From assembly GCA_003569365.1 (NCBI GenBank), contig BGOS01000022.1, positions 1-64,000 of the forward strand: a stretch of 64,000 bases of DNA, given 5' to 3'. The DNA comes from Anaerolineaceae bacterium (GTDB lineage: Bacteria; Chloroflexota; Anaerolineae; Anaerolineales; UBA11657). The translations under genes were made by a program, and so were the position numbers. Positions 1 to 12,335 of this stretch are shown here, piece after piece. The first letter of the stretch is position 1. The number at the start of each line of letters is the position of its first letter. The notes beneath the pieces are model-generated. The model was not told the origin of the DNA, did not search any database, and saw only the letters and a list, made by a program, of their open reading frames with translations.

Positions 1-525
1 CCGGCTCCAGCTCGACCCGAAGCGAATCGCCATTGGGGGCGTGAGCGCCGGCGGAGACCTCGCGCGACGCTGGCCTCGTCGCCCACGACCGCAACGAGGT
101 GTGCGGCCCGCGTTCCAGTTGCTCATCTACCCCATGCTCGACGACCGCACGGTGACGCGCACTGACCTCGACACGCAGCAACATGCGATGTGGTCGCCCG
201 AGAGTCAACGCCTGGGCGTGGTCTGTGTACCTGGGCCGGGCGCCGGGTTCGCCGGTACGTCTGCGTATGCGGGCCGCGGCTTCGGCGAGAGGACCTTGCA
301 GGCCTTCCGCCTGCATGGATTGGCGTGGGGACGCTCGACCTCTTCCACGATGAAGACGTTGCGTTCGCGAAGCGCCTGCAGGACAGCGGCGTGCTGTGTG
401 AGCTGCACGTGGTGCCCGGCGCGTTCCACGCCTTCGACGCCGTGTTCCCACGCGCTGGAGTCTCTCAGGTGTTCCGGCAGGAGTGGGTGCGTGTGCTCAA
501 GGCCGCGTTGCATCGGCCGGCCTAA
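1..525 (+). pseudogene. alpha/beta hydrolase (esterase/lipase) fragment, frameshifted
   Basis: The fragment enters from the left edge of the window. One frame reads RIAIGGVSAGGDLA, close to the GxSAGG nucleophile elbow of the hormone-sensitive-lipase-like alpha/beta hydrolases, and continues to QLLIYPMLDD, another conserved stretch of that family. After about position 210 the matching reading moves to another frame, where PPAWIGVGTLDLFHDED supplies the acid-residue region and VVPGAFHAFD the catalytic His region, ending at the stop near 525. All parts of the C-terminal two thirds of an esterase are present but not in one frame. It is either a decayed gene or contains base-calling errors. It lies beside other truncated genes, which favours real decay. 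Confidence 0.7.
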
Positions 526-605
526 CGGCGTTCCTTTCGCTGTGGCGAGCGCCCTGAGGTGAAGACTTTCCCACCAGCACTGGCTGACTTCGCTCCTGCG
601 CGGAC

Positions 606-756
606 TTGAATAGCTTGTTTGCTTCGTCCGAGGTCGCTCCGTTCGCCAAGACCGGAGGCCTCGGAGCCGTCAGCGCGGCGCTCCCGCGGGCGTTGGCCGC
701 GGCGCGCCACGACGTGCGCGTGGTTCTGCCGATGTACTCGCGGGTGCACGGGCCGG
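606..756 (+). pseudogene. glgA: glycogen synthase N-terminal fragment
   Basis: The reading from position 606 gives SSEVAPFAKTGGLG followed by ALPRALAAARHDVRVVLP, the ADP-glucose-binding N-terminus (KTGGLG signature) of bacterial GlgA-type starch/glycogen synthases. Only about 50 of the usual roughly 480 residues are present. Homology stops abruptly near 756, where sequence matching an IS91-type transposase begins. The fragment cannot encode an active enzyme. It is a remnant cut off by rearrangement or insertion. Confidence 0.7.
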
Positions 757-822
757 GTGGCGGGGATCGCGCTGCGCAAAGTGCAGCGCGCGACAGCGGG
801 AGCGAGCACAAGCGCGGCGGCG
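757..822 (+). mobile_element. internal scrap of IS91-type transposase
   Basis: About 65 bases here match, with only a few differences, positions 20317-20379 inside the transposase gene at the other end of the graveyard region. The shared peptide is VQRATAGAST. Both copies read on the plus strand. No ends or HUH motif are included, so this is a short internal piece. It joins the glgA fragment directly, which places an old recombination or insertion here. Confidence 0.75.
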
Positions 823-1105
823 CGAAGTTATTACCCCCCGCTGCATCCAGTGCCGAACTAAAGGTCTTTGTTGCAGAAAGTCTCTACATACGGCTTACGC
901 TGGCAATAATCGCGGTACTCTCACCAGAGTTGGAGCACTCTGCGTACTTCGCAAACCTTGCTAATAATAAAGTGGTGAATCACCTAATGTTAATCGTGCA
1001 AGGTCATTAATTTGCAGCGGGAAATTTTGGATTTGACCGGGGGTAACTGGGTCCAGCATTCCAGCTGCGCTGCACCTTGCCGGTTGCAATACTTGGGAGA
1101 CGGCC

Positions 1106-2695
1106 ATGTCTGATTGTGACATTCTCGTGATTGGAGCGGGCCATAACGCGCTCGTGTGCGCTGCATACATTGCGCAGGCTGGCTACAAGGTTGTGGTGCT
1201 GGAGCGCCGGCACAAGGCGGGCGGAGCAGTGGTAACCGAGGAGATTGTGCCCGGCTACCAATTTGACCTGGGCGGATCGGCCCACATCCTGATTAATCAC
1301 ACCCCCATCGTCAGTGATCTCAAACTGGCTGACTTTGGCCTTGATTATATTAATCTTGACCCGCTCTTTTTTGCGCCGTTCCCGGATGGTAAACACCTCA
1401 CCATCTGGCGCGACTTGGACAAGACTTGCGAGAGTATTGCCGCCATCTCGCCCCGCGACGCCGAAAACTACCGCAGTTTTGTTAACCGCTGGAAGCCCAT
1501 GGCTGAGGGCATGGTCGGTTCGTTTTTGAACGCGCCCACGCCGCTCAATCTGGCGCGTTATTTAGTCTTCGGGCAGGGGTTTAGCACCAGCGGCTTGGAA
1601 AATCTGCAAGAGCTGATGAAGGGTTACGGCCAGTTGTTGCGCCAGTCGTTTGCGGAGCCGCATGTGCCTGCGGTGATTGCGTGGATGGCGGCGCAATCCG
1701 GCCCGCCGCCCACCGAGCTGCTGTCTGCGCCGTTTGCATTGTGGCACCCGATGTATCACGTGAGTGGCATGAAGCGCCCGCGCGGTGGTTCCGGGATGCT
1801 TACCCAGGCACTGCAAAAGATGATTGAGGCGCATGGCGGACAGGTGGTGGTGGATGCACCGGTGGAGAGAATGCTGGTGGAGCGCGGGCGGGTGGTGGGC
1901 GCGCTAACCAGCAGCGGTGAAAGCTACACCGCCCGCCGCGCGGTTGTTAGCGGTGCGCATATCTTCACCACGCTCAAACTGCTGGGTGATCACGCGCCGG
2001 CCAAGGCGCGCGCTGCCATCGAGAAGGCGCGCGTTGGCAACGGCTTTGGCATGATGGTGCGCTGCGCGATTGATGAGCTTCCCGACTACAGCGCCAAGCC
2101 AACCGCCAGCAGCGACCGTGCACCCGGCTTCGACGCCGCATCCCAGCACATCGCCATGCAATTCATCTGCCCCGATCTGGATTATTTGGACCGGTCCTAC
2201 GGAGATTTTCTGGCCGGCCGGCCTTCCGCGGAGCCAGCTGTGATCGCCATGACATGGTCCGCGGCGGATCGCACACTGGCGCCGGCGGGCAAGCATGTTT
2301 TGTTTTTGTGGGGCCAATATTTTCCCTATGAGCTTGCCAATGGCGAACACTGGGATGTGATTGCAGAGCGTGAAGCCGAACGCATCCTGGCCGTGTTGCA
2401 GCGCTACGCGCCAAATATGACGCGCGACAAAATCAGCGGCTGGCTGATTGAGACGCCGCTCTATTTGGAGCGCGAGCTTGGCCTGCATCGCGGCAATGTG
2501 ATGCACTTGGAAATGTCTGTTGACCAGATGTTTTCGCTGCGGCCCGCTGCGGGCTTTAGCAAATATCGCGGACCCGTGCCAGGGCTGTACCTCACCGGTG
2601 CAAGCACGCATCCCGGCGGCGGAATCATGGGCGCGGCCGGCCGCAACGCAGCCGCCGCACTGCTGCACGATCTGACCCGCAACCGGGTCTGGTGA
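1106..2695 (+). CDS. CrtO/CrtI-like FAD-dependent carotenoid oxidoreductase
   Basis: This is a 529-residue flavoprotein. The N-terminus has a dinucleotide-binding fold, DILVIGAGHNALVCAAY, followed by LERRHKAGGAVVTEE. The C-terminus carries GLYLTGASTHPGGGIMGAAG, the FAD-binding signature of the phytoene desaturase superfamily. The GAGHN start, the TEE motif and the length fit the CrtO/PYROXD2 branch, which includes beta-carotene 4-ketolases of cyanobacteria, Deinococcus and Rhodococcus. That branch also holds many proteins of unknown substrate, so a carotenoid ketolase role is an inference that leans on the rhodopsin gene 247 bases downstream in the same direction. The ATG is preceded by a GGGAG ribosome-binding site. 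No other carotenoid or retinal biosynthesis gene is in the window. Confidence 0.7.
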   Translation: MSDCDILVIGAGHNALVCAAYIAQAGYKVVVLERRHKAGGAVVTEEIVPGYQFDLGGSAHILINHTPIVSDLKLADFGLDYINLDPLFFAPFPDGKHLTIWRDLDKTCESIAAISPRDAENYRSFVNRWKPMAEGMVGSFLNAPTPLNLARYLVFGQGFSTSGLENLQELMKGYGQLLRQSFAEPHVPAVIAWMAAQSGPPPTELLSAPFALWHPMYHVSGMKRPRGGSGMLTQALQKMIEAHGGQVVVDAPVERMLVERGRVVGALTSSGESYTARRAVVSGAHIFTTLKLLGDHAPAKARAAIEKARVGNGFGMMVRCAIDELPDYSAKPTASSDRAPGFDAASQHIAMQFICPDLDYLDRSYGDFLAGRPSAEPAVIAMTWSAADRTLAPAGKHVLFLWGQYFPYELANGEHWDVIAEREAERILAVLQRYAPNMTRDKISGWLIETPLYLERELGLHRGNVMHLEMSVDQMFSLRPAAGFSKYRGPVPGLYLTGASTHPGGGIMGAAGRNAAAALLHDLTRNRVW

Positions 2696-2899: not shown

Positions 2900-2942
2900 T
2901 ATTGCGAGAAGTTGAATTTGTAGTTACATAAGGAGCAGTATC

Positions 2943-3680
2943 ATGCCTACGTTATCTTTGTCCCAGTATCAAATTGTTTATAACTCGATCTCTTTTGCCA
3001 TCGCTGCCATGGGGGGCGCATTTGTCTTCTTTGTGCTGTCCCGGCCGGATGTTAACCCGAAGTACAGGCAGGCGATAACGATGTCAGCTTTGGTGTGCTT
3101 CATTGCAGGCTATCACTATTTGCGGATTTTCGAGAGCTGGAAGAATGCGTTCTCTGTTGCGGGCGGAATGTTTGCGCCCACCGGAGAGCCTTTCAATGAC
3201 GCGTACCGCTACATCGACTGGTTGTTGACAGTGCCGCTGTTGCTGGCTGAGTATGTAGCGCTGCTCGCGATTGATCGGGCCAAAGCCGAGGGCCTCAGTT
3301 TTCGCCTGATTGTTGCCTCGATACTCATGATCGTCACCGGCTATGTGGGCGAGGTGGCCACCGATGGCACGCGCGCGATCTGGGGCGCGGTGTCCACCGT
3401 TCCGTTTGTTTACATCTTGTGGGTGTTGTGGGGCGAGATCGGTGAGGCGATGGCGAAGGAGAGCGAGTACGTCCAACTTCTAATGCGCAATACGCGCCTG
3501 CTGTTGCTGGCGACGTGGGGTTTCTATCCCATTACATACATGCTGCCCATGCTCGGGGTTGCTGCGGGCAGCGCCGTGGTTGTTGTGCAGGTGGGCTACT
3601 CTCTGGCGGATGTGTTGGCAAAGGCCGGGTATGGCCTCATGATCTACCGGATTGCAAAAGCAAAGTCTGACGTAATTTAG
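2943..3680 (+). CDS. xanthorhodopsin-type light-driven proton pump
   Basis: This is a 245-residue, seven-helix microbial rhodopsin. Helix C reads YRYIDWLLTVPLLLAEY, giving Asp92 (proton acceptor), Thr96 and Glu103 (proton donor), the DTE pattern of outward proton pumps. Lys227 in LADVLAKAGYG binds retinal and Asp223 is the second counterion. His58 lies 34 residues before Asp92, as in xanthorhodopsin. The proteorhodopsin colour-tuning position is Leu100, predicting green absorption. Gly148, in the segment WGAVSTVPFV of helix E, aligns with the glycine that opens the carotenoid-antenna groove in xanthorhodopsin (alignment from memory). The start ATG has an AGGAG site at good spacing, and a strong terminator follows, so this is probably its own transcription unit. 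Antenna binding is inferred. Confidence 0.95.
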   Translation: MPTLSLSQYQIVYNSISFAIAAMGGAFVFFVLSRPDVNPKYRQAITMSALVCFIAGYHYLRIFESWKNAFSVAGGMFAPTGEPFNDAYRYIDWLLTVPLLLAEYVALLAIDRAKAEGLSFRLIVASILMIVTGYVGEVATDGTRAIWGAVSTVPFVYILWVLWGEIGEAMAKESEYVQLLMRNTRLLLLATWGFYPITYMLPMLGVAAGSAVVVVQVGYSLADVLAKAGYGLMIYRIAKAKSDVI

Positions 3681-3707: not shown

Positions 3708-3736
3708 AAAAGGGCGCGGGTGACCGCGCCCTTTTT
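3708..3736 (+). terminator. intrinsic terminator after rhodopsin
   Basis: An 11-bp perfect stem, AAAAGGGCGCG pairing with CGCGCCCTTTT around a 6-base loop, ends in a T run. It starts 28 bases after the rhodopsin stop codon. The A-rich left arm means it could also work on the other strand. Confidence 0.9.
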
Positions 3737-5600: not shown

Positions 5601-6144
5601 GCTGCGCACACCAAGCTATCCAGGCAGATAGCCCAAGTATTTCCCACAATGACTTCAGCGTGAGCCCAGCCGAACGCTGCTGTTCACGCCCCGTCTGGGC
5701 TGGTGCCACAACAAATTGGGTCTTGCGGTTGAGCCTGCATTACAGCTTGCAGCGCTAGCTGCGCTCGCGCCAGATTGTTTGGCGCGCACGCCGTCCCCAG
5801 GTACTTGCGTCCAGCCGGTCAGCCCCAGCATGCTCTCAGTTCCGCAGGTTTCGCCCGGAAAAATCTTGAATAAAAAGAGCAGCAGGCTGCGCATGCGTCT
5901 TTGAACTCAATGACAGTTGGCGGGGTGGAGGTGAGCGCGAAGGATCCCTAAAATTGCGGGGGAGCGCATCAACGCTGGTGGCCGGCACAGCCTATGGCCC
6001 GCCATTGATTCCGCAGCCAAGCTCATCAATTACAAACGTGCTACGCTGCCCCGGACCTCCGGCGCTGCGGTGTATCATCTGAAGCTCGCAGCTGTCGCCG
6101 CCTCATCGGCGTTATTGTGGCAGCCTCGCAAGGGAAAGTCGACC
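5601..6144. other. intergenic region, no gene recognised
   Basis: About 0.54 kb with no open frame that shows a family motif. It must contain the promoter of the amine oxidase gene, but no strong hexamer pair was picked out. An AGGGA ribosome-binding site lies shortly before 6145. Confidence 0.45.
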
Positions 6145-8061
6145 ATGCCAAAAACCAAAAGCACTGACACAGCACGGCCGCTCCCCCATCCGCTCGATCC
6201 CTTGAGTGCAGCGGAGATCGAAACAGCGGTCGCCATTGTCCGGCGCGACGGCGGGCTTGATGACACGGCCTGGGTTGAAACCGTCGGTACGGCTGAGCCG
6301 GACAAGGCAGATCTCGCTGATCTGACGCTGCAGTGGCGCAAGGCAAACGTGTGTTTCTATGAGCGCTCGAGCGGCCGCACCTTCGATGGTGTCGCCGATC
6401 TGCTTGCGGGCAAGCTTGAGGCATTTGCGCACGTCCCCGGCGCACAGGCGCGCATCAGCATTGACGAGTTCATCGATGGCGGCAAGATGGCAGCCGCTGA
6501 CCCGCGGGTGCAAGCGGCACTGCGGAAGCGCGGCGTCACCGATTTTGACCGCGTCGTGATCGAGCCGTGGGCCGCGGGCAACTTTGGCATCGAGTCCGAG
6601 GAAGGCCAGCGCATCGCCTATTGCCACTGCTGGCTTGCTGCGGCTGACGGTGACAATCCTTATGCGATGCCGATCGCTAATCTGCATCCGGTGATCGACC
6701 TGCGGGCGCGCAAGGTGGTGCGGGTGGATGATTTTGGTGTTGTGCCACTGCCGCCGGAGCCGGCCAAGTTTCATCACCGCACGGCGCTGCGCACGGATCT
6801 GAAGCCGCTGCATGTTGTGCAGCCCGAAGGCCCGAGCTTCACCGTTGCGGGCCATGCGGTGCGCTGGCAGAAGTGGCAGTTCCGGCTGGGCTTCAATGTG
6901 CGGGAAGGGGTGGTGCTGCACCAGATCGGCTATGAGGATGGCGGACGCGTGCGCCCGATCATGCATCGCGCGTCACTGTCCGAGATGGTCGTACCGTATG
7001 GCGATCCGACCGGTGGCAACTTCCGGCGCAACGCCTTCGACACCGGCGAGTATGGCGTGGGCCAATTCCTCGACAGCCTGGCGCTCGGCTGCGATTGCCT
7101 CGGCCACATCCACTACTTCGACATGGCGGTTCACGACTGGCACGGTGCGCCGAAAGTCAAACAGAATGCTGTCTGCATGCACGAGGAGGACTACGGCCTT
7201 CTGTGGAAGTACTCGAACTGGATCACCGGCGACGTGACGAGTGCGCGCTCGCGGCGGCTTGTGGTGTCCTCCTTCGCCACCATCGGCAACTATGTCTACG
7301 GATTTTTTTGGTACTTTTATCAGGACGGCACGATCGGCGTGGAGGTAAAGGCAACCGGCATCCCCTTTCCGACGGGCCTCGCCGCGGGCGCGGCTTCCGC
7401 CTACGGCGAGACGGTTGCGCCCGGCATCACCTCGCATGTGCATCAGCATTGCTTCTCCTACCGCTTCGACATGGCGATTGACGGCGGGCGGAATGCCGTG
7501 CGCGAGATCGACTGCGAGGCTGCACCGGCCGGGCCCGCCAATCCGCACGGCAATGCGGCACAGGTCAGCGTGCGGCCGTTGGAGAGCGAGTTGCAGGCAC
7601 AGCGCCCGATGGATCTCGCAAGGTCGCGTTCGTGGAAAGTGATCAATCCGAACGTGAAGAACGCGCTGGGCACTCCGGTCGGCTATCAACTCGTGCCCGG
7701 CGTGAACTCGTTCCCGTTCTTGCGGCCCGAGGCGCATGTTGCAAAGCGCGCGGGTTTTATGTTCAACCATTTCTGGGCAACGCAGTACCGGCCGGATGAG
7801 CTCTTCGCTGCGGGCAAATATCCGAACCAGCACCCGGGCGGTGACGGGTTGCCCAAATGGACACAGCGCGATGCAAGAATCGAAAACGAGAATGTCGTCG
7901 TCTGGTACACGCTCAACTACCACCACCTGCCGCGCCCGGAGGATTTTCCGGTGCAGCCGTGCGTCTACGCCGGCTTCCATTGGATGCCCGCTGGCTTCTT
8001 TGACAAGAACCCGGCGCTCGACGTGCCGATGGTGAAGGATCAGAAGAGCAGTTGTGCATGA
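6145..8061 (+). CDS. copper-containing primary amine oxidase (TPQ cofactor)
   Basis: This is a 638-residue copper amine oxidase, which converts R-CH2-NH2 plus O2 to aldehyde, ammonia and H2O2. The TPQ precursor is Tyr383 in TIGNYVY; the residue after it is Val rather than the usual Asp/Glu. The catalytic base is probably Asp299 in NAFDTGEYGVG. Copper ligands are His433 and His435 in HQHCFSYRFDMAIDG and a third His in FNHFWATQY. Numbering is almost the same as in Arthrobacter globiformis amine oxidase. ATG 6145 is chosen because AGGGA precedes it and the earlier in-frame ATG adds only an unrelated 25 residues. No export signal is seen, so it is probably cytoplasmic. Neighbouring polyamine importers suggest putrescine/spermidine-type amines as substrate, which is inference. 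Confidence 0.92.
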   Translation: MPKTKSTDTARPLPHPLDPLSAAEIETAVAIVRRDGGLDDTAWVETVGTAEPDKADLADLTLQWRKANVCFYERSSGRTFDGVADLLAGKLEAFAHVPGAQARISIDEFIDGGKMAAADPRVQAALRKRGVTDFDRVVIEPWAAGNFGIESEEGQRIAYCHCWLAAADGDNPYAMPIANLHPVIDLRARKVVRVDDFGVVPLPPEPAKFHHRTALRTDLKPLHVVQPEGPSFTVAGHAVRWQKWQFRLGFNVREGVVLHQIGYEDGGRVRPIMHRASLSEMVVPYGDPTGGNFRRNAFDTGEYGVGQFLDSLALGCDCLGHIHYFDMAVHDWHGAPKVKQNAVCMHEEDYGLLWKYSNWITGDVTSARSRRLVVSSFATIGNYVYGFFWYFYQDGTIGVEVKATGIPFPTGLAAGAASAYGETVAPGITSHVHQHCFSYRFDMAIDGGRNAVREIDCEAAPAGPANPHGNAAQVSVRPLESELQAQRPMDLARSRSWKVINPNVKNALGTPVGYQLVPGVNSFPFLRPEAHVAKRAGFMFNHFWATQYRPDELFAAGKYPNQHPGGDGLPKWTQRDARIENENVVVWYTLNYHHLPRPEDFPVQPCVYAGFHWMPAGFFDKNPALDVPMVKDQKSSCA

Positions 8062-8304
8062 AAAAGCTGGCCGGCGCCCCGCTGACCATTTGCGCTGCAC
8101 AAAGGCTGGGTGGCGGATAGCGACAATTGGGATTTGACAGGCGCGGGATCAGGGAGTACGATGCGAGTGTGCAGGTGAATTGAAATGTCCACTCGTACTC
8201 ACTTGGGCGCCTGCCCCGGAATATTATTCTTGCCCCGCGATTATTTTGGCGAGCAACTTCATAGCGGCTAAGTTTTTCTCGCGTGCCCACAACCATTTAG
8301 TTTG

Positions 8305-9504
8305 ATGCACCGAAGGGACTTTTTACGAAACTTAGCCAGCGCCACTGGCGGCGTGACGCTTGGCGGGTCATTGCTTGCAGCGTGCGGCGGTTCCGCTAAA
8401 AAGAACTCCGAGGGTTTACCGATCGGCACACCTGACAATCCGATCAAGTTGCCAGTCACGACAAAGCCGATAGCCGATGGTCTCCCAAGCGAAGCTGGAA
8501 CTTTAGAAATCCTCAACTGGGCCGACTATCAAAACCCCGAGTCAATCGCTGTATTTGAAGAGCAATTCGGAGTCACGATCTCCACCAGCATTTACGATAC
8601 AGAGGAAGCAGCAATTGCCAAGCTGCGCAACGGCACTTTTAAGCCAGACATCATCGTTGGCATGACTGATACTGGACTGGCAAAGCTTATTGCCGCCGAT
8701 TTGCTGCAGCCATTGAACAAGTCGTACATACCGAATTTCGGCAATGTGATTTCCGGGCTGCGAAGTCCGTACTACGACCTTGAGTCGCAGTACACAGTGC
8801 CTTACATGATTTACGCCAATGGCATCGGCTATCGCACTGATCGCGTCGACAAGAATGCCTTTACCAATAGCAATGGATACGACGTTCTGTGGGACGCGAA
8901 ATATAGCGGCCGGCTGGCAGTGCTTGACTCGTACCGGGACACCATGGCGATGGCTATGCTGCGGGCGGGCCACAAAGATGCAAATACAAGCGACCCCGCG
9001 ATAATCAAAAAAGCAGGCCAAGATCTGATTGCAATGCGAAAAGCCACCAATCCGAAAGTGGATGTGCTGGCCTACCAGGAACTTTCCGCGGGTAATCGTG
9101 ACATTAACTTCACCTGGTCGGGCGACTTGTTCACAGCTTTGCAGTATCTGCCAGAAGGCGTGTCGCCGGACGTGCTTGGCTTTTGGTATCCAGATACCAC
9201 GGTGGCCAAGGACGATTTCTTTTGCATCACCAAGAACGCGAAGGTCCCGGTATTGGCGCATCAGTTAATTAATTTCTTTTGCGATACTGAAAGCGCGATG
9301 TTGAACCGCGAATATGTTGGGTATCAGCCGGCGCTTGAAACAATCACTGTGGAATTGCTGCTTTCGAGCGGCACGATTCCGGAGTCGCTGATTGGGGCGC
9401 TCGTCACGCCGGAAAAGTACGAGGCCGGCCTGGCACAAGTTTCGCTTGAGCCGGACGTCGATGCGCTTTGGCTCGAGCAATGGACGGCGTTCACCGCTGG
9501 ATAA
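8305..9504 (+). CDS. potD: spermidine/putrescine-type ABC substrate-binding lipoprotein (cassette 1)
   Basis: The product is about 400 residues. The N-terminus MHRRDFLRN has a twin-arginine-like motif and leads to a lipobox LLAAC with lipidated Cys27, so it is probably exported folded by Tat and anchored outside the membrane. The mature part begins with LEILNWADYQNPESI, typical of PotD/PotF periplasmic polyamine-binding proteins, and contains DIIVGMTDTGLAKLI and LFTALQYLPEGV as in that family. It leads a potD-potB-potC run on the plus strand. An in-frame TTG precedes the ATG directly, and no strong ribosome-binding site is visible. Substrate specificity within the polyamines cannot be read from sequence. 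Confidence 0.88.
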   Translation: MHRRDFLRNLASATGGVTLGGSLLAACGGSAKKNSEGLPIGTPDNPIKLPVTTKPIADGLPSEAGTLEILNWADYQNPESIAVFEEQFGVTISTSIYDTEEAAIAKLRNGTFKPDIIVGMTDTGLAKLIAADLLQPLNKSYIPNFGNVISGLRSPYYDLESQYTVPYMIYANGIGYRTDRVDKNAFTNSNGYDVLWDAKYSGRLAVLDSYRDTMAMAMLRAGHKDANTSDPAIIKKAGQDLIAMRKATNPKVDVLAYQELSAGNRDINFTWSGDLFTALQYLPEGVSPDVLGFWYPDTTVAKDDFFCITKNAKVPVLAHQLINFFCDTESAMLNREYVGYQPALETITVELLLSSGTIPESLIGALVTPEKYEAGLAQVSLEPDVDALWLEQWTAFTAG

Positions 9505-9507
9505 ATA

Positions 9508-10389
9508 CTGAAAAGTTCACCTAGCCTCTGGGCCGGGTTTGCAATACCCGGCACTATCTGGCTGATCGCTTTGTTTGCGGTTCCGTTCTACGCGGTGGCT
9601 TGCGTGGCATTCGGCTCCATCGATCCCGTGTTTAGGGATGCGGTCCCGCAATGGAACCCGCTGGCATGGGACTTCACCCAGGCACAGCAGATCGCAATAA
9701 GTTTGGCGGCGGGTCCCCTGCAAGGGGTTGCTCTGCGAACCATTTTCTATGTCGCGTGTGCGATGGTCCTGTGCTTCGCAGTCGGGTTCCCTGTTGCATA
9801 TTATCTTGCCCGCCACGCCGGCAAACGAAAACTCATGCTGCTCGTTTTGATCATCGTGCCGTTTTGGGTCAACTACCTAATGCGCATGCTGGCCTGGGTC
9901 AACCTGCTGAGCACGGACGGATTGTTCACCCGGTTTATGCGGGTTTTTGGGGTTAACTACAACTGGCTCGATGGCTCGCCTGTCACGGTCATCCTTGGCC
10001 TGGTTTATGGATATATTCCGTTTTTGATTTTGCCCCTGTACGCAACACTCGAGCGCCTCGATTGGCGGCTCGTTGAGGCGGCGCGCGATCTGGGGGCGAA
10101 CTCGTGGCAGGCATTTCGCCTCGTCACAATGCCGATGTCCAAAGCCGGGCTGGTTGCCGCGGGCATTTTGATTGCGCTGCCCATGTTTGGTGACTACTAC
10201 ACCAACGACCTGTTGTCGCGCTCGCCCAGCACGGAGATGATCGGCAATCAAATTGACTTCTTCTTAAACTCCAGCTCCCAACCGCAAAATGGCGCCCTGC
10301 TTGTTCTGGCGCTGTCAATGTTTTTGCTCTTGTTTATGTCTTTCTACTTGCGCAGCACCCGGCAAGAAGCGCGCCAACACACGGGATAG
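9508..10389 (+). CDS. potB: polyamine-type ABC permease PotB (cassette 1)
   Basis: This inner-membrane permease has about six transmembrane helices and the EAA loop LVEAARDLGANSWQAFRLVTMP that contacts the ATPase. Family-like sequence begins at LWAGFAIPGTIWLIALFAVPF, upstream of any ATG in this frame. The frame opens just after the potD stop at 9504, so the start is probably a non-standard codon such as CTG 9508, or TTG 9571 with a shortened first helix. It is followed after 5 bases by potC. It forms the channel with PotC. Start position is uncertain, function is not. Confidence 0.85.
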   Translation: MKSSPSLWAGFAIPGTIWLIALFAVPFYAVACVAFGSIDPVFRDAVPQWNPLAWDFTQAQQIAISLAAGPLQGVALRTIFYVACAMVLCFAVGFPVAYYLARHAGKRKLMLLVLIIVPFWVNYLMRMLAWVNLLSTDGLFTRFMRVFGVNYNWLDGSPVTVILGLVYGYIPFLILPLYATLERLDWRLVEAARDLGANSWQAFRLVTMPMSKAGLVAAGILIALPMFGDYYTNDLLSRSPSTEMIGNQIDFFLNSSSQPQNGALLVLALSMFLLLFMSFYLRSTRQEARQHTG

Positions 10390-10394
10390 ATCGA

Positions 10395-11270
10395 ATGCGC
10401 CGCTTGCGCAAGCACAACGAAACTTCCCCGCTGGTGTTTGTGATCTGGGGCTACATCATCTGGAGTCTCGTGCCGGTGATCATCGCCGTGGTTTATTCAT
10501 TCAATGACGGTCGGAGCCGCACCGTCTGGCAGGGCTTCTCGCTGCGCTGGTGGTTTACCGACCCCTATGCCTCAATTTTTCATAATGCCGAAACGCGCAA
10601 TGCAATTGTTAATTCGCTCGTTTTGGCAATAGCTACCCTGCTTGTTGTAACGCCGCTTGGCATGATGCTGGCTATTGGCGCGCAGCGAATTCGCGGGCGC
10701 GGCGCCCGCTTGGTGCAGGGCCTGACGGCTGCGCCGCTGATCACCCCTGAAATTGTTGTCGGCGCAGCACTGCTGATAACATTCACCCGCTTGTTCACTG
10801 CAATACCGCTGGGTTTCGCTGCGCAACTATTGGGCAACGTCACATTTTCGCTCTCAAGTGTTGTGGTTATCGTGCGGGCGCGCCTCGTTTCAATTGGCGC
10901 ATCTTTTGAAGAAGCCGCGCGCGACCTGGGCGCAACCAGATTGCAAGCATTGCGTTACGTTCTTTTGCCGATGCTCTGGCCATCTGTAATGGCCAGTCTG
11001 GTGGTTGTGTTCGCCACAGTGATTGATGATTTTGTGATCACCAGTTTTCTCTCGGCTGGCGTGAGTTCAGAAACTGTTCCGTTGCGTATTTACTCCTCGG
11101 TTAAAGGCGGCGCAACGCCGGCCCTGAATGCACTTGCCACGCTGCTGGTGCTGGCATCTTTCTTTGTTTTGATTATTGGACTGTTTGGTTTGTCAGCTTG
11201 GCGGAAACAGCAGGGGGAACGCGGTGGTCTGCGGGCAGCGCTTGCCGATGTTACCCAGATGGATAACTAG
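10395..11270 (+). CDS. potC: polyamine-type ABC permease PotC (cassette 1)
   Basis: This is a 291-residue permease with six predicted helices and the EAA loop FEEAARDLGATRLQALRYVLLP. The segment TPEIVVGAALLITF and VIDDFVITSFL match PotC proteins. It pairs with the upstream PotB. It ends 3 bases before the stop of the cassette's ATPase gene, which runs in the opposite direction. The two genes are therefore convergent with essentially no spacer. Confidence 0.9.
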   Translation: MRRLRKHNETSPLVFVIWGYIIWSLVPVIIAVVYSFNDGRSRTVWQGFSLRWWFTDPYASIFHNAETRNAIVNSLVLAIATLLVVTPLGMMLAIGAQRIRGRGARLVQGLTAAPLITPEIVVGAALLITFTRLFTAIPLGFAAQLLGNVTFSLSSVVVIVRARLVSIGASFEEAARDLGATRLQALRYVLLPMLWPSVMASLVVVFATVIDDFVITSFLSAGVSSETVPLRIYSSVKGGATPALNALATLLVLASFFVLIIGLFGLSAWRKQQGERGGLRAALADVTQMDN

Positions 11271-11273
11271 GAT

Positions 11274-12335
11274 TTAGTTCGCAGGCTGCAAGACGCGAAC
11301 CGCGTCGGGCAGAACATCAATCAGCGTTTCCTGGCCGTCATGCAGGCTGGTTGATGTTTCGTCATTTGGCACTTCGGCGTTAATCGTCACGTCGCCGAGT
11401 TTGAGGCTGACCCGCAAACTGGAGCCGGCAAAGATCACCCGCTCAATCGTCGCCTTGTGTGTGCCAGCACCGATGCGAATACGCTCAGGGCGAATCATCA
11501 TAATGCCATCACCCAGTGGCGCGGAGGCCGGGGCGACGAATTTTTCGCCGGCAAATTCAACCACTCCGCGCGCTGTAACCCGGCCGGCAATCAGGTTTGC
11601 TGCGCCAACGAACTGGGCGACTTCGACAGAGTTGGGCTGCTCGTAAAGTTCGCGGGGCGCGCCAACCTGCAGCAATTGCCCGGCGCGCATTACGCCGATT
11701 CTGTCGCTCATCGTAAATGCCTCGTGCTGGTCATGGGTTACATAGATAAAAGTGATGCCGATCTGGCGCTGCAAGGTGGCCAATTCAACCTGCAATCTGG
11801 CGCGCAACTGGGCGTCGAGTGCGCCCAGCGGTTCATCGAGCAACAGTACGCTGGGCTCAAGAATTAAGGCGCGGGCAAGGGCGACGCGTTGCTGCTCGCC
11901 GCCTGAAAGCTGGTGCACGCGGCGCTCGCCAAACCCGTTAAGTTGCACCAGTTCAAGCGCTTCTGCGACGCGTTGCTTGGCGGGCTTGGTTCCGTTGGCA
12001 GAGGATTTTTCAAAGCGCAGCCCGAACTTGATATTTTCCTGCACGTTCAGGTGCGGAAACAGCGAATAGTGCTGAAACACCGTATTTAACGGGCGCTCCT
12101 CAGGTTCGGTGTGCGTGACATCGCGGTCGTCAATGAATATGGTGCCGCTATCGGGCTGTTCAAAACCGCCGATCATGCGCAGGGTTGTTGTCTTGCCGCA
12201 TCCCGACGGCCCAAGCATCGAAAAAAACTCGCCCGCCTGCACCTCAAGCGAAATATTGTCAACGACTACTTTGTCGCTGTAAGACTTTGAAATGTGTTTT
12301 AGGGTTACTGCGCCGTCTAATTCTATTGGCGTCAT
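11274..12335 (-). CDS. potA: polyamine-type ABC ATPase PotA (cassette 1)
   Basis: This is a 353-residue ATPase. Walker A is GPSGCGKTTT near residues 42-50, the signature is LSGGEQQRVALARAL, Walker B is LLLDEPLGALD, and the H-loop follows in VTHDQHEAFTMSD. The C-terminal roughly 110 residues form the TOBE regulatory domain typical of PotA/MalK-type ATPases. AGGGGA stands before the ATG. It faces the potDBC genes tail to tail, so the ATPase is transcribed separately from the rest of its transporter, which is unusual. The sequence upstream of its start is occupied by an IS91 remnant, which may have changed its promoter. Confidence 0.92.
   Translation of the reverse strand: MTPIELDGAVTLKHISKSYSDKVVVDNISLEVQAGEFFSMLGPSGCGKTTTLRMIGGFEQPDSGTIFIDDRDVTHTEPEERPLNTVFQHYSLFPHLNVQENIKFGLRFEKSSANGTKPAKQRVAEALELVQLNGFGERRVHQLSGGEQQRVALARALILEPSVLLLDEPLGALDAQLRARLQVELATLQRQIGITFIYVTHDQHEAFTMSDRIGVMRAGQLLQVGAPRELYEQPNSVEVAQFVGAANLIAGRVTARGVVEFAGEKFVAPASAPLGDGIMMIRPERIRIGAGTHKATIERVIFAGSSLRVSLKLGDVTINAEVPNDETSTSLHDGQETLIDVLPDAVRVLQPAN

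Follow-up and report, generated by a model that had tools for sequence, protein, structure and literature searches.

The question raised by this locus is whether a rhodopsin gene of an uncultured member of the Chloroflexota encodes a proton pump that could also collect light through a bound carotenoid, and which carotenoid that would be. Carotenoid antennas broaden the light usable by rhodopsin phototrophs. The gene lies near the start of the window, i.e., the whole 64,000-nucleotide stretch that was analysed (contig BGOS01000022.1, positions 1 to 64,000); its features are collected in Table 1. We consider it probable that the product is a xanthorhodopsin-family proton pump of the glycine-gate “subgroup I” with a carotenoid-antenna groove, which is overall the best explanation of the data.

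Table 1. Features of the rhodopsin locus (positions are those of the window)
Feature	Position	Strand	Basis
RBS-like hexamer AAGGAG (Shine-Dalgarno-like), 7 nt 5' of the ATG	2930..2935	+	direct reading
Rhodopsin gene, xanthorhodopsin family, 245 aa	2943..3680	+	ATG start, no internal stops, alignment, AlphaFold model, Pfam
Asp92-Glu103 codons DWLLTVPLLLAE: acceptor D92, T96, green-tuning L100, donor E103	3216..3251	+	XR alignment
Gly148 codon GGC, carotenoid-gate glycine (XR Gly156 / GR Gly178 / Kin4B8 Gly153)	3384..3386	+	alignment
Asn183-Leu204 codons, helix F slot	3489..3554	+	alignment; positions from PMC3646047, PMC12308411
Lys227 codon, retinal Schiff-base lysine (XR K240)	3621..3623	+	alignment
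Probable intrinsic terminator: 8-bp perfect GC stem GGGCGCGG/CCGCGCCC, GTGA loop, T5	3712..3736	+	direct reading

This is the only rhodopsin gene of the whole genome (2.63 Mb in 30 contigs, 95.5% complete), and its product matches PF01036 (Bac_rhodopsin) with 135 bits. The nearest named record, CANNEJ010000047.1 (87% protein identity), is a contig of an Anaerolineales MAG, isolate ZE-17mar17-73, whose genome belongs to the same genus as that of the window. In the tree, the rhodopsin and its same-genus orthologue form a firm pair; one pairwise comparison of the two gives a dS of 1.53 and a dN of 0.089, and the resulting dN/dS of 0.06 indicates that the gene is kept by strong purifying selection. 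Judging from the isolate name and the published freshwater relatives, the host is probably a lake bacterium; the assembly of the window's genome contains no 16S gene. Downstream of the gene, a predicted-terminator scan returned a shorter, 5-pair version of the terminator (3718-3731), the number of such sites in the region being at the chance level; an end of the rhodopsin transcript at the stem in Table 1 is suggestive only.

At the contig start (window 41-1010), alpha/beta hydrolase fragments occur in two frames (41-562 and 190-525; PF07859), and a glycogen/starch synthase domain (606-1010; PF08323) is represented by approximately its first 45 residues only; as the letters read, the genes there are broken or frameshifted. 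On the other side of the rhodopsin, at 6070-12335, a primary-amine oxidase gene precedes a set of ABC transporter genes of the spermidine/putrescine type, a combination in keeping with the use of nitrogen-rich organic matter that has been described for lake Chloroflexi.

As far as its sequence and predicted fold can tell, the protein almost certainly belongs to the xanthorhodopsin family and pumps protons outward in the light. Against the solved xanthorhodopsin (XR), Kin4B8, Gloeobacter rhodopsin (GR), psXR and thermophilic rhodopsin (TR), its identity is 53-57%. The same five proteins are its top PDB matches in a phmmer search (261-278 bits), with E-values from 1e-82 to 1e-76 that exclude chance similarity, and XR, Kin4B8 and GR among them are proven carotenoid binders; actinorhodopsin comes next with 199 bits, and the proteorhodopsins are far lower, at approximately 90 bits (90 for green proteorhodopsin). 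The AlphaFold model (pLDDT 88.8, pTM 0.86) has seven transmembrane helices and superposes on psXR, TR, XR, Kin4B8 and GR over 240-243 residues with VIA-align Z of 30-32; Foldseek gives a TM of 0.91-0.92 against the same XR-type structures. The seven helices and the Schiff-base lysine in helix G characterise a type I microbial rhodopsin; the Asp-Thr-Glu set in helix C, the His-Asp counter-ion pair and the greater closeness to XR, GR and Kin4B8 than to proteorhodopsin characterise a pump of the XR family.

The alignment with the reference, XR (PDB 3ddl), is gap-free up to the E-F side loop and pairs H58 with H62, D92 with D96, T96 with T100, L100 with L104, E103 with E107 and, past that loop, D223 with D236 and K227 with K240. 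The initial annotation had named Asp92, Thr96, Glu103, Lys227, His58 and the green-tuning Leu100, and had stated that the distance from His58 to Asp92 is the same as in xanthorhodopsin; all of these residues are verified by the alignment, and the spacing is indeed 34, equal to that between XR positions 62 and 96.

In such a pump, the retinal on Lys227 would absorb green light, the Schiff-base proton would pass to Asp92 (paired with His58), and reprotonation would come from Glu103. Gly148 and the slot of helices E and F would form a groove on the side of the protein, next to the retinal ring; a xanthophyll could sit in it and hand on blue-green excitation energy to the retinal. All four events are inferred here: that protons are pumped, that retinal is loaded, that a carotenoid is bound and that its energy reaches the retinal.

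A glycine at the gate has been described as the primary criterion for carotenoid sites (PMC12308411). In GR, a Trp in its place abolishes carotenoid binding (PMC9151804), and a bulkier residue at the gate of Kin4B8 prevents zeaxanthin binding (PMC12308411). The assignment of Gly148 to this gate in the initial annotation holds, the residue being aligned unambiguously with the gate glycines of XR, GR and Kin4B8; the local letters, WGAVSTVPFV, fit the WGxxSTxPFV segment that was given for it. A large residue at the gate, such as Trp, had been named as a finding that would speak against an antenna; both the alignment and the superposition show Gly, neither Trp nor Phe.

The rest of the site was compared at twelve carotenoid-contact positions drawn from PMC3646047 and PMC12308411. 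Eleven of the twelve are identical to XR, and the twelfth (L204) is identical to GR. The XR slot residues T160, L194, L197, A198, G201, I205, Tyr207, Met208, Met211 and Asn191 are all matched; within helix F, the identical residues are N183, L186, L189, A190, G193, I197, Y199, M200 and M203. The protein thus has what defines subgroup I in sequence, namely glycine at XR 156 and an identical helix E/F slot (T160, L194, L197, A198, G201, I205 and Y207). At the same eleven positions, GR shares eight residues with XR and Kin4B8 seven, though both bind carotenoids, and many Chloroflexota relatives share nine. A groove with these residues would quite likely accept a suitable xanthophyll in vitro; as to whether it is used as an antenna within the cell, we find the case evenly balanced.

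The most serious alternative is that the pump runs on retinal alone, the glycine gate being an inherited trait of the clade and the groove being filled with lipid. The gate glycine is found in 18 of 20 relatives from genome contigs and also in TR; therefore, it is the default of the clade and nothing special to this protein. It is also necessary rather than sufficient for binding: in Octadecabacter, the xanthorhodopsins carry the glycine but fail to bind salinixanthin (PMC3646047). For the AAP5 xanthorhodopsin, which likewise carries it, the cells yielded no salinixanthin (PMC7762795); in addition, no clear 4-ketolase was found in the genomes considered here. However, it is the entire slot, beyond the glycine, that is kept at XR identity in this rhodopsin, whereas the Octadecabacter-type proteins of subgroup II have lost it (PMC3646047), and carotenoid genes do exist in the genus. 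We therefore regard a pump without pigment as a real possibility, albeit not a probable one.

It can also be proposed that a pigment is bound and serves only the stability of the protein or the speed of its photocycle, with no useful energy transfer. In Kin4B8, bound 4-ketocarotenoids transfer energy poorly (PMC12308411, PMC13093654), and carotenoid binding stabilises GR (PMC9151804). Nothing specific to the present protein separates such a role from that of an antenna, and we presume it to be improbable.

Returning to the antenna, the type of pigment can be approached from the pocket and from the genes. Met203/Leu204 make the floor of the site hydrophobic, as in the 4-keto binders XR and GR; a 3-hydroxy-xanthophyll site of the Kin4B8 kind was not found, since M203/L204 stand in place of the polar residues at Kin4B8 208/209. 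The residues fit the 4-keto type, yet the genes point away from it: there is no convincing CrtO, and a CrtW-type ketolase (fatty-acid-desaturase family, PF00487) was not found in the three genomes searched.

The CrtO candidate was the CrtO-like FAD oxidoreductase gene upstream of the rhodopsin (window 1106-2695), which scores 334.8 bits against the NCBIfam equivalog NF045689, where the cut-off for CrtO is 1000 bits. Its role as a dedicated CrtO ketolase was rejected as unproven: the score is approximately one third of the cut-off, and at least four comparable paralogues are encoded elsewhere in the genome (322, 286, 226 and 159 bits). Such a gene adjoins the rhodopsin in none of the 20 other loci searched. 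The CrtO/PYROXD2-like family is expanded, with genes at C3:44044-47150 and C26:24757-29496 of the window's genome in addition to that in the window; by eye, some of its genes adjoin Rieske-type and aminomethyltransferase-like enzymes, and the family is probably catabolic.

Genes for the carotenoid backbone are best seen in the same-genus genome G001, where crtI, crtB, a CarR/CrtYcd-type lycopene cyclase gene and a cytochrome P450 gene stand in a row on one contig. The second-best solved relative of this P450 is plant LUT5, which we take to be a beta-ring hydroxylase. In the window's genome, contig C6 ends inside crtI, with 88% DNA identity to the G001 locus, and the remainder of the locus (crtB, cyclase and P450) was probably lost to assembly. 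The view that the missing crtB means that the organism makes no carotenoids was rejected, because the contig ends there and the G001 order continues into crtB, the lycopene cyclase and P450. The crtI copy on C6 (C6:267818-269197) is split over three frames, and the G001 copy (L041:4943-6493) is intact, with 516 aa in one frame; the split is probably an assembly error at the contig end, or else the gene is decaying. Contig C9 of the window's genome (L015:3978-9888) carries a run of CruF-like, PlsY-like acyltransferase, CruG/HpnB-like glycosyltransferase and CrtD-like genes, which is likely to be a pathway to an acylated carotenoid glycoside, broadly resembling that for salinixanthin.

The source of retinal presents a separate difficulty. 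A profile search did not find blh (PF15461) in the genus, and the same search found it in four of eight other rhodopsin genomes; an RPE65-family oxygenase was not found either. The two sister genomes are 68-75% complete, so these absences carry weight for the window's genome only. In one reading, the lack of blh and RPE65-type genes would mean that retinal is acquired externally or made by an enzyme of another, unknown kind. CL500-11 was earlier listed as rhodopsin-bearing and blh-lacking, functional xanthorhodopsins are known in blh-less organisms, and another blh-less bacterium makes retinal by an unknown route (PMC7734400). The fullest version of the preferred explanation, in which the pump uses such retinal and holds a carotenoid of the cell's own making, perhaps with hydroxyl and sugar groups (P450, CruF, glycosyltransferase and CrtD), in its 4-keto-type pocket as antenna, is tentative and, as a whole, rather unlikely.

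In the same-genus genome G002, a HAMP and adenylate/guanylate cyclase gene lies 110 bp 3' of the rhodopsin (L045:1156-3114), and a light-signalling link is possible there. That the rhodopsin is non-functional or sensory, as this neighbour and the missing retinal-forming enzymes could suggest, is very improbable considering the complete DTE motif, the H58-D92 pair, the low dN/dS, the blh-less organisms with functional xanthorhodopsins, and the window itself, where the rhodopsin stands alone with no adjacent cyclase gene.

We believe that this rhodopsin is a good test case for two problems: what selects keto- versus hydroxy-carotenoids, and how blh-less bacteria get retinal. Its slot is among the most XR-like of those compared, and its host genus, an uncultured one of the Chloroflexota, has carotenoid genes, while no known retinal-forming enzyme was found.

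Compared with XR of Salinibacter ruber (54% identity), the protein shares all pump residues and the gate glycine. XR Leu148 has no counterpart, since the E-F side loop is shorter here, and XR Phe157 and Ala212 correspond to Ala149 and Leu204. GR (6nwd) and psXR (9wfa) are 54% and 56% identical, respectively, and the gate glycine is common to all. GR, which binds 4-keto carotenoids, has Met/Leu at the base of helix F, as here; its Thr179, which favours binding, is replaced by Ala149, a change that, like the missing Leu148, counts against the antenna; XR and Kin4B8 likewise lack this Thr. At XR positions 194 and 198, GR has Trp and Leu, whereas the present protein has Leu186 and Ala190, which brings its slot closer to that of XR. 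Kin4B8 (8i2z), which binds zeaxanthin and lutein, is 55% identical and shares the gate glycine, Tyr204 (Tyr199 here) and Asn188 (Asn183 here); however, the Ser208/Tyr209 pair with which it binds the 3-hydroxyl is replaced by Met203/Leu204 in the present protein.

The closest published parallel concerns the xanthorhodopsins of freshwater Chloroflexi (CL500-11, SL56, TK10 and others) reported by Mehrshad et al. 2018 (PMC6169038). These are green-tuned and keep up to 10 of the 12 salinixanthin-contact residues, and an antenna was proposed for them; the phylum, the tuning, the mostly conserved contact residues and the suggestion itself are the same as in this report. Antenna-competent xanthorhodopsins in lake Chloroflexota are thus already published; what is new here is the pigment-gene context of the rhodopsin.
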